Source of the DNA: a virus
DNA: 47,658 nt
Direction: 5' to 3' (one strand)
IMG/VR virus record: IMGVR_UViG_3300028920_000101
Location: 1 to 47,658 of that record
The position numbers were made by a program, and so were the translations under genes. The notes under the pieces were generated by a model. The model was not told the origin of the DNA. It ran no database searches and worked only from the letters and a program-made list of their open reading frames with translations. This document shows positions 13,695-34,717 of the stretch, one piece after another. Position 1 is the stretch's first letter. Each line of letters opens with the position of its first letter.

Positions 13695-15571
13695 TCGTCC
13701 CCCTGGGCGCGGGCGCGGAACTCCTCCCACACCTCCTTGTCGTGTTGGTCGAGCTGCGACTGGCTCTCTTCTCGCGCCCGCTCGGCCGCCAAGTTGAAGT
13801 CATATAGCGAGAAAGCAATCGCGACGTAGAGTGCCACGGCCAGCGACATGACTCGGTCGTCCGGCATGCCGCTCTCTCCCCGGAATCGAACAGTCAGACC
13901 GCTGTCCGTCAGCTCCTGGCCGAACGTGCCCAGCTCCTCGAGCGTGTCGTCGCACATGACGTGCAAGGCCCGGTAACCCGTGCGGCGGTCCTTGATTTGC
14001 TGCTGCGTGATGGACACCATCGTCGATTTGCTGCGGATTGTCGTATCGACACCGAACACTGCATCTGCCGCAAACTCGACTTGGGTCTGGTCCGTGACGT
14101 CGCGAAACAGGTTCCAGTAACCCCAGTCCCGTAAGCATCGGATTGTCTCGTTGCCGGGACCATTACGCTCGATTACGAGTATCGCGCCGTTGTACAAAGC
14201 CCCGAGTTTGAAGCAGTCTTCCGCGAAGTGCTGCGGGTTGATCCAGCCATGGAGCTGAGCGACCATCGTGAACGTGAGCAGCCCCTCGGAGAACTCCATT
14301 CTGAGCACACTGGCACAGCTCGCGTCCCCTTTGATCAATCCCTGCGCGACGTCGCCGCCGATCACGTACTGGGCGGACGGCTCTGGATGCTCCCACACGC
14401 GCAGCGGCCCCTCGTCGTTCCTGATGAACAAGGGCTTTGGGTCAGTGTCCTGGTAACTGCCGAGGATTTCGCGCACGTCACGCCCGCGCTCGTCGGTGAA
14501 AACGAGAAACCCACGGGTGGGAGCACAGACTTCGTCGGCCATCGCAGCGAGTTCGAGCTGGTCAAATACGCCGGTTGCCGAGTAGGCCGCTGGCCGACCG
14601 TAGACGCGCGCCTCCACCTCGGCGGGTGACATCAACTCCATGGAGGCGCGAATTTTGTCGTGGTCCGCCAAGCCGGCAGAGAACTGATCTATCGTGTGGA
14701 GCGTGACCAGGCGCTGCTTGGTCCCTGGAACGAGCTTGGCGCCTTTGGCATCGCGCGTGAGGACCTTGTGACTCCAAAAGCCCTTGCCTCCCAGCGGGGT
14801 CTCGGTCATGACGAGGCCGCTGTGGCGCACGGTCTCTAGGCGCTTGAGGCACTCGCCCAGAAACTGCGCGGGCACCTGCTCGTCGAAATGGACCAGCGCG
14901 TACGCCGCGCCGGGCATGGCGGCCGGACCCTGCCTCTCCGAGAACAGCGTAATGGTGCTTTTGGCGTGGCGACACGAACCGGCCCTACCCGCAGCGGCGC
15001 ACTCGGGACACGACACTGTGATGATTTTGCGCGTGGCATCGTAATGGTTGAACCACTTCCCGCCTTCCGGGAACACCGGCGACAACGGATTGCCGCTTTC
15101 TCCGGTGATGTATTTGGGTTCGAATACCCGCGGTGCATACTTCGTAAAGCTGTAGCTCACGACGGCGATGTCAGCCGGGAGCTGCGGGACTTGGCGATAC
15201 GGATGCGACCCGGTTACGACGTAGTAGGCCTCCGCAATCGCGCTCTGCGTTTTGCTTATCCTGTTACCGCCGCGAAAATATCTGACCAGCGCTGTCGACT
15301 GATGAAACTCTAGAGCGACGTCGTGCGCTGGGCGGTACAGCGTCATCGGGTCGGCCTCGACGATTTGCGCGAGGTTGTCGCGCATCGTGCGCAGTGCACG
15401 AACGAACGCCACCGTTTTCTTTTGCTTGCGCTTCGCGGCTGGCCATTCTGCAATGATATCGCGGACAAAGCCGCTGTAATCGAGAAAATTCGAGACGCGG
15501 ACCTCGCCCTCGTCGTAGCCGGCCTCGGCGACTATCCGCCGGCACTCCGCCATGACGCTCGAATGGTCCAT
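13682..15571 (-). CDS. terL: Terminase large subunit
   Basis: 629 residues from the ATG at 15571 (MDHSSVMAECRRIVAE), which shares a base with the preceding TGA. The N-terminal ATPase has a Walker A-like GGNRISKT at 101-108 (Gly is more usual at the Ser position) and a Walker B LVHFDE at 226-231. The C-terminal RNase H-like nuclease has Asp407 in GGDVAQG, Glu468 in LVIERNG and Asp571/572 in MPDDR. A Cys188-x2-Cys191-x8-Cys200-x-His202 cluster inside the ATPase is unusual. It powers DNA packaging at the portal and cuts concatemers. Confidence 0.93.
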   Translation of the reverse strand: MDHSSVMAECRRIVAEAGYDEGEVRVSNFLDYSGFVRDIIAEWPAAKRKQKKTVAFVRALRTMRDNLAQIVEADPMTLYRPAHDVALEFHQSTALVRYFRGGNRISKTQSAIAEAYYVVTGSHPYRQVPQLPADIAVVSYSFTKYAPRVFEPKYITGESGNPLSPVFPEGGKWFNHYDATRKIITVSCPECAAAGRAGSCRHAKSTITLFSERQGPAAMPGAAYALVHFDEQVPAQFLGECLKRLETVRHSGLVMTETPLGGKGFWSHKVLTRDAKGAKLVPGTKQRLVTLHTIDQFSAGLADHDKIRASMELMSPAEVEARVYGRPAAYSATGVFDQLELAAMADEVCAPTRGFLVFTDERGRDVREILGSYQDTDPKPLFIRNDEGPLRVWEHPEPSAQYVIGGDVAQGLIKGDASCASVLRMEFSEGLLTFTMVAQLHGWINPQHFAEDCFKLGALYNGAILVIERNGPGNETIRCLRDWGYWNLFRDVTDQTQVEFAADAVFGVDTTIRSKSTMVSITQQQIKDRRTGYRALHVMCDDTLEELGTFGQELTDSGLTVRFRGESGMPDDRVMSLAVALYVAIAFSLYDFNLAAERAREESQSQLDQHDKEVWEEFRARAQGDEWGN

Positions 15572-23702: not shown

Positions 23703-23757
23703 GCCCACTGATGAGTCTCTTGGCCGAGACGAAACGCCCCCGGTGGGGCGTCTGGGT
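23703..23757 (+). ncRNA. Hammerhead ribozyme 1 (type I)
   Basis: The core CTGATGA (23708-23714) and GAAA (23731-23734) are both present. Stem II is GTCTC/GAGAC with loop TTGGCC. Stem III is CGCCCC/GGGGCG with loop CGGT, and is followed by UC. Stem I pairs GCCCA (23703-23707) with TGGGT (23753-23757), the outer pair being G-U. The predicted cut is after C23752, giving the next gene a 33-nt leader. The 5' edge abuts the TGA of the gene before. Confidence 0.94.
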
Positions 23758-23785
23758 AGCCAACAACGCACGAAAGGGAACAGCC

Positions 23786-24481
23786 ATGACGACGCTCAAA
23801 AACATCGCCAGTGACTGCGCGGACATCTCCGACTGGATCGTTTGGACCGACGATCTTGGCGACCCAGTGGACATGGAGAGCTATCACGGCGAGTACGACT
23901 ACGACATCCGCGTGTGCAATCGCGACGCACTGTGTGCTCGGCTCGATGAGGTGGACACTGGCGATGACTATCGCATTATCGACGTCTGCCAGCCCGGTCA
24001 CTACCGCAGCACAGAGGTCCTCATCGTACGCCCCGGCTCCGACTGCGCCCGCGAGCTCGAACGGGCCATGGTGGCGCTCGAGACCTACCCTCTGTTGGAC
24101 GACGACTTGCACTCACAACGCGAGTCCGAAGCCGCGGCGGACGACTGGACGCGCATGTCATGGCAGGAGCGCATCGCCATCCTCGCAGAAGCGGACCTAC
24201 CCATACTGGCCGCGCGGCGCGACTCACCCCACGAGGCTCTCGGATACCACTGTGACCACGAGGGGGTGCATTGGCACCGCGAGCACGGGTATCGCTACGT
24301 CGCCGTTGCCGCGGACGACGCGACGGACTCGCACGCGGCGACGTACGTGGGGCGCGCACTGGATTTGGCCGGCTTTGACGCGGGCACCCGTTACGAGTTG
24401 TGGGCGGTTTGGGCGTGCGACGACGGCTCCGCTCGTCTCAGCTATCACCGTGGCCGACTCTGCTACACCGCTACGGCGTGA
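23786..24481 (+). CDS. Hypothetical protein, ribozyme cassette 1
   Basis: 231 residues from the ATG at 23786 (MTTLKNIASDCADISDW), with AAAGGGAAC upstream. It is acidic, rich in Asp, Tyr, Trp and Cys. A segment GYHCDHEGVHWHREHGYRY near residue 152 is His-rich, and the C-terminal part is strand-rich. The opening MTTLKNIASD resembles MKTLRDITFD of the 25124 gene, so the two may be related. No known family is recognised. Confidence 0.66.
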   Translation: MTTLKNIASDCADISDWIVWTDDLGDPVDMESYHGEYDYDIRVCNRDALCARLDEVDTGDDYRIIDVCQPGHYRSTEVLIVRPGSDCARELERAMVALETYPLLDDDLHSQRESEAAADDWTRMSWQERIAILAEADLPILAARRDSPHEALGYHCDHEGVHWHREHGYRYVAVAADDATDSHAATYVGRALDLAGFDAGTRYELWAVWACDDGSARLSYHRGRLCYTATA

Positions 24482-24505
24482 CCGCTGTGCAACGCCGATA
24501 GAATA

Positions 24506-24562
24506 GCCCGCTGACGAGCCTCTTGGCCGAGGCGAAACGCCCCCCCCCCGGGGCGTCCGGGC
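24506..24562 (+). ncRNA. Hammerhead ribozyme 2 (type I)
   Basis: Core CTGACGA (24511-24517) and GAAA (24534-24537). Stem II is GCCTC/GAGGC with loop TTGGCC; its second pair is C-G where ribozyme 1 has U-A. Stem III is CGCCCC/GGGGCG closed by six C. Stem I is GCCCG/CGGGC, with the core-proximal pair changed from A-U to G-C. The predicted cut is after C24557, 30 nt before the next ATG. Confidence 0.94.
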
Positions 24563-24587
24563 AGCCAACAACCGAGGAGGCGATCAC

Positions 24588-25043
24588 ATGGCCAAGTACC
24601 AAATCACCCATTCCTGCGGGCACACCGAGACGCACGGGATCGGCGGCACCAACACCCGCGGTCAGCGCGAGAGCAAGGCCGCATGGCTCGCGACGCGTGT
24701 CTGCGGCGAGTGCTATCGGGCAGAGAGAGACGCCGCGCGGGCAACAAAATCGGCAGAGAGCGCGAGCGCTAACGCCGTCGGCGGGATGCCCACGCTCACT
24801 GGCACACCCAAGCAGATCGCTTGGGCCGAGACGCTACGGGCCGAGGTGGCCGCGAAATTGCTCCCGTTGCGTGCTCAGATAGCCGAGCGGGCGGATGGCA
24901 ACCCGCGTGTTGCGCGGGCGATGGTGGCCGCGATCGACGGCGTGATGGCGCACACCGATGCCAAGTGGTGGATTGATCAGCGCAACGTCACCTACAACCG
25001 CGCATGGATCCAAGCGCAGATCGCGGACATAGCGACAGAGTGA
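24588..25043 (+). CDS. Hypothetical zinc-binding-like protein, ribozyme cassette 2
   Basis: 151 residues from the ATG at 24588 (MAKYQITHSCGHTETHG), with GAGGAGGCG upstream. An N-terminal HSCGHTE...H and a later CGECYRAE pair (residues 8-45) look like a zinc knuckle. The middle is Ala/Thr-rich, with TGTPKQIAWAETLRAEV, a motif seen in several phage and plasmid hypothetical proteins. The C-terminus includes AKWWIDQRN. Function is not known. Its TGA abuts ribozyme 3. Confidence 0.66.
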   Translation: MAKYQITHSCGHTETHGIGGTNTRGQRESKAAWLATRVCGECYRAERDAARATKSAESASANAVGGMPTLTGTPKQIAWAETLRAEVAAKLLPLRAQIAERADGNPRVARAMVAAIDGVMAHTDAKWWIDQRNVTYNRAWIQAQIADIATE

Positions 25044-25096
25044 GCCGTCTGACGAGTCCTGTGGCGAGGACGAAAGCCCCCCCTGGGGCTCACGGT
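25044..25096 (+). ncRNA. Hammerhead ribozyme 3 (type I)
   Basis: Core CTGACGA (25049-25055) and GAAA (25072-25075). Stem II is GTCCT/AGGAC with loop GTGGCG. Stem III is GCCCC/GGGGC with loop CCCT; its basal pair is G-C where the other copies have C-G. Stem I is GCCGT/ACGGT. The predicted cut is after C25091 (CUC triplet), 32 nt before the next ATG. The compensatory changes in all three stems support a functional fold. Confidence 0.93.
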
Positions 25097-25123
25097 AGCC
25101 AAAACGCACGAAAGGGACCGACC

Positions 25124-25504
25124 ATGAAGACGCTCAGGGACATCACGTTTGACTACATCCACGTGTACTGCGATCTGACTGCTGAGGACGAGAGCCAAGC
25201 CCAGCATGAGCTGTTGGCCGAGCTCGGCAGCTTCGCGCGGTCTCTGCGTAATGAGGGGCACGATGGCGATGCTCTCGTGACCTATGCCATGGTCGAAGAG
25301 GACCGCTTGCCGGCACTTGCTGCGCATATCCGCGCAATCCATGGCGGTGGCGATGACATAGTCTATCTGTACAGTGGCGGTGAGGCCTGCAATTTCCGCG
25401 TTGTCCGACACCCCGGGCTCACTGCCGGATATCCTCTCGTGGACATGGACGAGCTGGCCGACATGTACGACACGGACGACACGGACGAGCGCGCGAATTG
25501 CTGA
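25124..25504 (+). CDS. Hypothetical acidic protein, ribozyme cassette 3
   Basis: 126 residues from the ATG at 25124 (MKTLRDITFDYIHVYCD), with AAAGGGACC upstream. It is acidic with a C-terminal run of Asp (MYDTDDTDER). It is possibly a short relative of the 23786 product by its N-terminus. No known motif is seen. Confidence 0.64.
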   Translation: MKTLRDITFDYIHVYCDLTAEDESQAQHELLAELGSFARSLRNEGHDGDALVTYAMVEEDRLPALAAHIRAIHGGGDDIVYLYSGGEACNFRVVRHPGLTAGYPLVDMDELADMYDTDDTDERANC

Positions 25505-25507
25505 GAC

Positions 25508-25557
25508 GCCCACTGATGAGTCCGTGAAGGACGAAACGCCCCCCGGGGCGTCTGGGC
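25508..25557 (+). ncRNA. Hammerhead ribozyme 4 (type I)
   Basis: Core CTGATGA (25513-25519) and GAAA (25533-25536). Stem II is GTCC/GGAC with loop GTGAA, close to the classic viroid and satellite RNA hammerhead. Stem III is CGCCC/GGGCG with a short C/G loop. Stem I is GCCCA/TGGGC. The predicted cut is after C25552, 32 nt before the next ATG. Confidence 0.94.
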
Positions 25558-25584
25558 AGCCAACAACGCACGAAAGGGAACGAC

Positions 25585-25941
<357 letters not shown>

Positions 25942-26872: not shown

Positions 26873-27160
26873 ATCAGCAGGCTTTTCGGGGACGACGGCC
26901 AGCGTTTCGAGGCCGACGACGGACGCGACATCGGCGACGTTTGCGAGGAGAAGAGCGCCCGCACAGACCGCGAGCGACGCGGTTATGCTGGCTGCGCGAC
27001 CCGCTACGAGTTCGAGGACGGATCGGCGATCGTGACGCGTGACGGCGGGTGGGACATCGGGATACCTCACTGCGCCGCTTGCTATTGTTGGGAGGGAGCG
27101 GACCACGGGAGGCACGTCCCGCAGTGCATCTATTCCCCGGATTGCGAAATTGAGTTCTAA
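26849..27160 (+). CDS. Hypothetical Cys-containing protein, paralogue of the 27270 gene
   Basis: 103 residues from the ATG at 26849 (MTQTIAQQISRLFGDDG), with AGAGGGAAC upstream. The C-terminus has CAACYCWEG and CIYSPDCEIEF, which may bind a metal. The 27270 protein keeps the same first eight residues and then jumps to a version of this C-terminal segment, so one derives from the other by deletion or recombination. Function is unknown. Confidence 0.65.
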   Translation: MTQTIAQQISRLFGDDGQRFEADDGRDIGDVCEEKSARTDRERRGYAGCATRYEFEDGSAIVTRDGGWDIGIPHCAACYCWEGADHGRHVPQCIYSPDCEIEF

Positions 27161-27165
27161 CACGC

Positions 27166-27256
27166 ACGTTCCCCGCACACGCGGGGTTGAGCCGAATACC
27201 TCTTCGGTCACCTGCCAGAACGACCTCACGTTCCCCGCACACGCGGGGTTGCACAG
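27166..27256 (+). CRISPR. Mini CRISPR array: two type I-E-like repeats, one 33-nt spacer
   Basis: Repeat 1 (27166-27194, 29 nt) has the CCCCGC-ACAC-GCGGGG hairpin and ends in the 8-nt handle TTGAGCCG. Repeat 2 (27228-27256) matches its first 24 bases and then diverges, as terminal repeats often do. The spacer is 27195-27227. Length, hairpin and handle closely follow type I-E repeats processed by Cas6e. No cas gene is in the window, so host Cas proteins would be needed. The array fits exactly between two genes. With only two repeats, chance or another hairpin role cannot be excluded. Confidence 0.72.
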
Positions 27257-27269
27257 AAAGGGAACGCAC

Positions 27270-27671
27270 ATGACACAGACAATCGCACAGCAGGAAGGCG
27301 CGGACCGCGAGAAGCACGCCTCGACTTGCATCTATTGCCCGGATTGCGAAGTCGAGCTTCGTCCTGAAACCGACGAGCCATGCCCTTGCTGCAATCGGTG
27401 CAGCGCTTGCGCGCCGCGCAACCACGTGATCGCGGTCGGCTGGACAGACCGGTGCGACGCGTGCTTTCTGTCCACCGGCCGCCAATGGGTGATATTGAGT
27501 CGAGACGGCTCGTCGTACGTCTACATGATCGACACTGTGGAGCAAATAGACAGAGCGCGAGAGGACATGCGGGAGCTAGGCGTTGAGTCGGCGCCGGCCT
27601 GCGTCGGCGACCCGCTGACCCCGGACGGCGATCATTACGAGACCGGCCGCATGCTCTGGGCTGACAAGTAG
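27270..27671 (+). CDS. Hypothetical zinc-finger-like protein
   Basis: 133 residues from the ATG at 27270 (MTQTIAQQEGADREKHA), with AAAGGGAAC upstream; longer frames run through the CRISPR repeats. The N-terminal half has CIYCPDC, CPCC, CSAC and CDAC motifs (residues ~20-70), suggesting two or more zinc sites. The C-terminal half is mixed alpha/beta. It is a partial paralogue of the 26849 product. Confidence 0.66.
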   Translation: MTQTIAQQEGADREKHASTCIYCPDCEVELRPETDEPCPCCNRCSACAPRNHVIAVGWTDRCDACFLSTGRQWVILSRDGSSYVYMIDTVEQIDRAREDMRELGVESAPACVGDPLTPDGDHYETGRMLWADK

Positions 27672-33918: not shown

Positions 33919-34525
33919 CCTGCTGTTCCGCTGCCTTCCGGCTCATCGCCTTTTCGTAAGCCGACAGTATCTGTTTCCGTAGCCCCGGGTCTTTGATTTT
34001 CTCTAGCTCTGTGCAAAATTGTGCAGCGTAGTCGCCGGTCGCAAAATTCTGTATGTTGATTGTCAGGTTCTCGATATGAATTATTTTTGCTCCGGCAAAG
34101 TCACCGGTAAGCGCGACCCGGTGGACCTCCTGGACCGCAGCCTTTACCGACCCCGGCAAATAATCCCACGAGGCCACTGCCTCGGGCTCTCCTGTGCCAT
34201 GACCGTGCAGTACGATCTTCTCTCGCAGCGTGTACGTGTTGGTGACTCCATCGTCCTTGCCGCACTCTACATGCAGATACCCGTACTCGGCTAGAGTATC
34301 GAGATGCCTCTGCACTGTCCTCCGGCTCATTCCTGCCTTCTTGGCGAGCGTTTCCTGGGAAGGGAACGCCTTACCGCTGTTCCAGCTCAGGCATGACTTG
34401 ACCACGAGATAGAGTGCCGCGGGGCCCGAGCCCATCGTCGCGACGTCGCCAGAGTCGACCATGCTGCGGAAAACGTGGAACCAGCTAGTGTGGGCGTCGT
34501 GCTTGGGGGTGCTATCGTGCGTCAT
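33911..34525 (-). CDS. Winged-helix replication-type protein
   Basis: 204 residues, starting MTHDSTPKHDAHTSWFH. Residues ~20-85 form a HTH: GPAALYLVVKSCLSWNSGK, then PSQETLAKKAGMSRRTVQR, then HLDTLAEYGYLHVE. Such proteins occur as plasmid and phage replication initiators or regulators. It lies beside an origin-like region with DnaA boxes, which supports a role in replication. A TTGACA/TAGACG promoter would start transcription at or next to its ATG. Confidence 0.65.
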   Translation of the reverse strand: MTHDSTPKHDAHTSWFHVFRSMVDSGDVATMGSGPAALYLVVKSCLSWNSGKAFPSQETLAKKAGMSRRTVQRHLDTLAEYGYLHVECGKDDGVTNTYTLREKIVLHGHGTGEPEAVASWDYLPGSVKAAVQEVHRVALTGDFAGAKIIHIENLTINIQNFATGDYAAQFCTELEKIKDPGLRKQILSAYEKAMSRKAAEQQAT

Positions 34526-34531
34526 ACGCGG

Positions 34532-34560
34532 CGTCTACGCTGTCACGCCGAATCTGTCAA
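34532..34560 (-). promoter_or_regulatory. Promoter for the replication-type gene
   Basis: On the minus strand TTGACA (34560-34555) and TAGACG (34537-34532) are spaced by 17 bases. The expected start of transcription (about 34525) coincides with the ATG, which would give a leaderless mRNA; this agrees with the lack of a Shine-Dalgarno. Confidence 0.48.
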
Positions 34561-34578
34561 CCACGCGCTGCGTCGGAG

Positions 34579-34717
34579 TTATCCACATATCCACAGCTAT
34601 CCACAGCGCAGCGTGTCAAATCCAAAAGGGGTGCGTCACTCTTGTCGCACCCCCGATTTTTTTCGCGAGCGGGGGGTGCGTCACCAGTGACGCACGATCT
34701 AGATCTATATCTAGATC
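34579..34717. other. Origin-like region: DnaA boxes, iteron-like repeats, AT-rich palindrome
   Basis: Three 9-mers TTATCCACA (34579-34587, perfect DnaA box), ATATCCACA (34587-34595) and CTATCCACA (34597-34605) lie in a row. Four GTGCGTCAC-like motifs alternate in direction between 34628 and 34695. An AT-rich inverted repeat with arms GATCTAGAT/ATCTAGATC (34696-34717) follows, a possible unwinding element. The adjacent winged-helix gene completes a replicon-like module. Confidence 0.65.
34628..34664 (+). terminator. Hairpin with T-run inside the origin-like region
   Basis: GGGGTGCG pairs with CGCACCCC, followed by CGA and seven T on the plus strand. It looks like a factor-independent terminator, and would stop plus-strand transcription coming through the integrase. 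The stem arms are the same GTGCG repeats counted as iterons, so the function may be either or both. Confidence 0.45.

Follow-up and report, generated by a model that had tools for sequence, protein, structure and literature searches.

Four type I hammerhead motifs in series between consecutive cistrons of a phage genome and their predicted role in mRNA processing

Gene context of the hammerhead motifs

The window, by which we mean the whole stretch of DNA analyzed, is a virus record of 47,658 bases. Structural genes for a portal, a head-tail adaptor, a major head protein and an internal virion protein are located on the minus strand, and a RecE-like exonuclease and an integrase are encoded on the plus strand. 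This combination of genes indicates that the phage is probably temperate. Its major head protein shares about 25% identity with the counterparts in Arthrobacter and Microbacterium phages, and this likeness suggests an actinobacterial host. The motifs described here and the genes between them are listed in Table 1. Family searches assigned no function to the four proteins encoded downstream of the hammerheads, and no relative of cistron 1 was found. Within cistron 4, a CCCGCG-type tandem repeat (25802-25853) codes for the Pro/Ala-rich stretch of the protein.

Table 1. Coordinates of the hammerhead motifs (HH1 to HH4), the first leader and the adjacent open reading frames in the window. R1 is the covariance model described in the text.
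Feature	Position	Strand	Characteristics
Upstream ORF, 49 aa	23553..23702	+	UGA directly before HH1; no Pfam match
HH1, type I hammerhead	23703..23757	+	stems I/II/III 5/5/7; predicted cut 23752/23753; R1 50.0 bits
Leader of cistron 1 after the predicted cut, 33 nt	23753..23785	+	stem I 3' strand, pseudoknot strand, Shine-Dalgarno-like GAAAGGGA
Cistron 1 (HH1-HH2), 231 aa	23786..24481	+	weak phrog_3906
HH2, type I hammerhead	24506..24562	+	stems 5/5/7; predicted cut 24557/24558; R1 44.2 bits
Cistron 2 (HH2-HH3), 151 aa	24588..25043	+	phrog_16123, family of unknown function
HH3, type I hammerhead	25044..25096	+	stems 5/5/6; predicted cut 25091/25092; R1 38.0 bits
Cistron 3 (HH3-HH4), 126 aa	25124..25504	+	no family
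HH4, type I hammerhead	25508..25557	+	stems 5/4/7; predicted cut 25552/25553; R1 59.6 bits
Cistron 4 (after HH4), 118 aa	25585..25941	+	no family; Pro/Ala repeat

The stop codon of the preceding gene ends 0, 24, 0 and 3 nt ahead of HH1, HH2, HH3 and HH4, and the distance from the predicted cut to the next start codon is 33, 30, 32 and 32 nt, respectively. Each predicted cut in the window lies past the stop codon of one gene and ahead of the ribosome-binding site of the following one. The serial placement between consecutive cistrons that an earlier, sequence-only reading of this DNA had proposed is borne out at four consecutive plus-strand gene junctions. The junction after 25941 has an ordinary leader and no hammerhead, which indicates that not every gene requires such processing. 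Around the array, neither promoters nor intrinsic terminators gave a clear signal above shuffled sequences.

Detection and structure of the four hammerheads

A descriptor of the core, three stems and a UH cut site returned exactly four matches in the window, all of them complete type I hammerheads on the plus strand. The full-core, three-stem descriptor gave no match on the other strand, in the reversed window or in 200 dinucleotide-preserving shuffles. In addition, we trained a covariance model (R1) on 36 hammerheads taken from other phage contigs; the four copies of the window were left out. R1 detected exactly the same four sites, each with a significant score (38.0 to 59.6 bits, E 1.6e-18 to 8.4e-11), and the next-best match in the window reached 10.7 bits (E 0.44). 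The Rfam covariance models, which the sequence-only reading had named as a check, reported zero hammerheads in the window at the gathering score. RF00163 (Hammerhead_1) shares core, three stems and topology with the window's motifs, but gave sub-threshold matches of 22.1 and 19.2 bits at best against a cut-off of 34. RF03152 (RAGATH-1) matched partially with 26.2 and 25.3 bits, far under its cut-off of 56.3, and its extra upstream hairpin is not common to the four copies. We attribute the silence of Rfam to the thresholds, set too high for hammerheads of this subgroup; the covariance evidence comes from the independent model R1 and not from Rfam. Judged by the Rfam thresholds alone, the lack of a significant covariance score, which the sequence-only reading had named as a refutation, would have applied.

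All four copies carry C3-U4-G5-A6-N7-G8-A9, G12-A13-A14, the A15.1-U16.1 pair and a C at H17, and conform to the core positions of the published filter. The topology consists of three helices with loops closing stems II and III and an open stem I, in HH2 only as a near-MFE fold: the MFE fold is the hammerhead in three of the four copies, whereas in HH2, which has a run of ten C in stem III, a mispaired MFE structure beats the canonical fold by 0.7 kcal/mol. The first pair of stem I is A-U in HH1 and HH4, G-C in HH2 and U-A in HH3, and the second pair of stem II varies between U-A and C-G. Such changes on both sides of the stems around a fixed core had been pointed out in the sequence-only reading and are real, with the nuance that the supposed change from C-G to G-C in stem III may in HH3 be the loss of a whole base pair, because this stem is one pair shorter. 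The four starts and cut positions given in the sequence-only reading are identical to ours.

The sequences also allow a pseudoknot of 4-5 bp between loop II and the 3' flank in HH1-3. In HH1 and HH2 the loop sequence UUGGC can pair with GCCAA just 3' of stem I, and in HH3 UGGC can pair with GCCA. HH4 has a shorter loop II (GUGAA) without an evident pseudoknot.

Hammerhead arrays in other phages

Searching IMG/VR with one pattern yielded 5 contigs and a looser pattern at least 119 stretches. These loci and the window form the comparison set, the contigs of which were thus chosen for holding at least one motif. In the loci listed plus the window, the descriptor recognized at least 226 hammerheads (at least 184 distinct) in at least 108 contigs. 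A genome scan gave three matches that failed a structure test and were rejected. Among the matches listed, 48 contigs have two or more hammerheads and 28 have three or more, with a maximum of ten, 276 of 280 same-contig pairs share a strand, spaced by about the length of a gene (median 532 nt), and 222 motifs in 1.1 Mb of other phage DNA compare with 0 in the reversed sequence. All four opposite-strand pairs of the set originate from a single contig (L007), in which one motif at 14172 on the plus strand faces four on the minus strand. Whole-record searches with R1 revealed that the hammerheads form a localized run in most records; a 69.4-kb contig, for instance, holds 10 at 49.4-56.1 kb, and a 51-kb contig holds 9 at 4.4-8.7 kb. 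A T7-like RNA polymerase suspected by eye in another contig (L102) was not confirmed by Pfam.

The placement relative to genes is similar to that in the window. Among the matches listed, a stop codon is found at most 10 nt from the motif start in 168 of 226 cases (74%) compared with 60 of 1130 random places, and a start codon lies 20-39 nt past the cut in 139 of 226 compared with 159 of 1130. Since all reading frames are used, this points to placement of the motif at the end of the ORF and not to frame selection. The longest pairing between loop II and the 3' flank, counted for one motif per contig among the matches listed, has a mean length of 2.84 bp compared with 2.33 bp after permutation (0 of 500 permutations as high). 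In the contig L005 the letters of the pseudoknot change together (GACC/GGUC, GGCC/GGCC and CAGCC/GGCUG).

In ten array loci only 2 hammerheads pass the Rfam cut-off compared with about fifty detected by the descriptor, and Rfam misses about 95% of the hammerheads checked. As the current cut-offs hide most of them, phage hammerheads are probably much more common than annotation shows.

Relation to known hammerhead clusters

That a series of four type I hammerheads separates phage cistrons is supported by their core and fold, the covariance scores, the common strand, the location and the comparison with many other phages, with self-cleavage as a prediction. The sequence-only reading knew of no serial array separating consecutive cistrons, but the arrangement is not new: clustered hammerheads in prophages, where multiple copies flank individual genes or short gene blocks, were described in 2011 together with the proposal that long phage transcripts are processed into mRNAs for one operon or one gene (Perreault et al., 2011; PMC3088659). 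Tandem arrangements cleave in vitro, and a triple array of A. tumefaciens cleaves in E. coli (PMC3088659). Like the array in the window, these clusters (A. tumefaciens, C. scindens, A. caulinodans) are serial and flank single small (pro)phage genes, and many of their members have a stem I/II pseudoknot. The array, in which several hammerheads of the same direction flank individual genes of a record that encodes an integrase, a portal and capsid proteins, fits this kind; added here are scale and anatomy. In detail, the window differs in that its phage is unrelated and each of four consecutive junctions holds a type I motif. Three of these motifs begin no more than 3 nt from a stop codon, and other contigs contain up to ten hammerheads among the matches listed. 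Prokaryotic hammerheads often lie close together and flank small ORFs of unknown function, with their role still open (2017 review, PMC6155905), and an enrichment of self-cleaving ribozymes close to one another and to genes of Mu-like phages is on record (2023 paper, PMC10085705). For the tight stop-codon placement and for arrays of eight to ten hammerheads no published report was found in the mainly open-access literature covered. The role of hammerheads in phages has been an open question since 2011, and arrays that fill whole runs of gene junctions, at a fixed place after the stop codon and ahead of the ribosome-binding site, allow the idea of mRNA processing to be put directly to the test.

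Proposed role in mRNA processing and alternative explanations

We consider it likely that the four hammerheads act in cis as an array that cuts a polycistronic phage transcript at consecutive gene junctions into single-gene mRNAs. Hammerhead cleavage leaves a 2',3'-cyclic phosphate on the upstream product and a 5'-OH on the downstream product. The upstream mRNA would therefore keep its stop codon and end in the GC-rich stem III hairpin with the cyclic phosphate, and the downstream mRNA would begin with the 5'-OH and a short leader bearing the ribosome-binding site. As the cut would be located between stop codon and ribosome-binding site, both proteins could still be made from the products. The likely purpose would be to give each gene an mRNA of its own, with ends and a lifetime controlled separately from those of the others and without a host nuclease. 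At its sites in the early region of T7, RNase III cuts the polycistron between genes and leaves mRNAs of one gene each that end in a 3' hairpin. The processing proposed here would be comparable but autonomous, since the T7 sites are cut by a host protein, whereas in the window the RNA itself is predicted to cut. The sequence shows the motifs with their core, fold and pairing, the position at gene junctions and a matching anatomy in many further phages; cleavage at the window sites, the ends of the products and a benefit to the phage are inferred. The slightly more stable misfold of HH2 and the lack of a pseudoknot in HH4 are points against processing.

An mRNA can also be targeted for decay by its 5'-OH end, as in the case of glmS and RNase J1 in Bacillus, so that stabilization is not the only possible outcome. 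It is conceivable, although rather unlikely, that cleavage takes place but serves chiefly to reduce expression: the protected 5' end would be lost, the 5'-OH mRNA would be degraded or poorly translated and small accessory genes would be tuned down, possibly gated by terminating ribosomes that unfold the motif. Among the matches listed, the stop codon abuts the ribozyme or lies inside it in most copies (within -8 to +7 of the core in 152 of 226, with the core's own UGA as stop in 39 and a stop ending directly before the core in 27). A terminating ribosome must therefore cover the 5' half of the motif, which makes interference plausible, and the motifs are followed by small genes (median 85 aa, among the matches listed). 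On the other hand, the leaders in the window retain a Shine-Dalgarno-like site after the predicted cut and no ORF would be broken by it. That the phage arrays represent a widespread form of ribosome-gated mRNA cutting, in which translation termination at the built-in stop, often the core UGA, would time the separation of cistrons, appears quite unlikely to us.

Hammerhead and leader are repeated as a unit in the window. Leaders related to that of cistron 1 follow HH3 (25092-25123) and HH4 (25553-25584), and the repeat of HH1 and HH3 extends into the first codons, although BLASTP detected no homology between cistrons 1 and 3. Other phages have homologues of cistron 2 (L131-L138) in stretches without hammerheads nearby, and the motif is therefore not tied to that gene family. 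Both observations would be expected if hammerhead and leader were a neutral spacer cassette spread by recombination between genes, with catalysis lacking a role. We regard this as very unlikely, as the copies diverge and yet their stems stay paired through two-sided changes around a fixed core. Across phages, two-sided changes were counted in 163 cells compared with 42 in shuffles among the matches listed, a difference that is partly built in, as the descriptor demands stem pairing; the results for pseudoknot, strand and stop codon are free of this effect.

Circular mRNAs, for which gene-length RNAs with a 5'-OH and a 2',3'-cyclic phosphate would be joined by host RtcB or by reversal of the ribozyme, are highly improbable: the units between predicted cuts (805, 534 and 461 nt) would have RtcB-type ends and RtcB is present in an actinobacterial control genome, but the phage itself has no RtcB, the product ends fit plain processing equally well, and circular or spliced products were looked for and not found by Perreault et al. 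(2011; PMC3088659).

Relatives and duplications in the array region

The leader pattern has no other occurrence in IMG/VR, the array region gave no DNA match to annotated phages, and with the DNA of the array loci no named phage with an array was found. One close relative (contig L009, 13.5 kb) contains no hammerhead and probably does not cover the array region. Leaders are also duplicated outside the array, with GGGAACGCACATGAC occurring three times (26837, 27258 and 27685) and ACACTCTCGCACAGGAGTACAC twice (26005 and 26501) in the window, so that duplication of leaders is common in this region. In another phage contig (L008), two genes of one hammerhead array (7561 and 8345) look like paralogues by eye (ERFYFWLF...GYTEGYKT), which suggests that gene-plus-ribozyme cassettes duplicate.

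Between two phage genes on the plus strand of the window (27166-27258), CACGTTCCCCGCACACGCGGGGTTG occurs twice at a distance of 62 nt. Judged by its sequence, this looks like a mini-CRISPR array with one spacer and type I-E-like repeats; repeat and spacer have no exact match elsewhere in IMG/VR. It is flanked by a 64-nt duplication of coding sequence (27091-27154 and 27293-27356) with 80% identity. About six degenerate CRISPR-like repeats of the form CCCCGC...GCGGGG are also present in an unannotated intergenic region of the Streptomyces phage Eklok (L143; MT521991.1, about 34400-34700).
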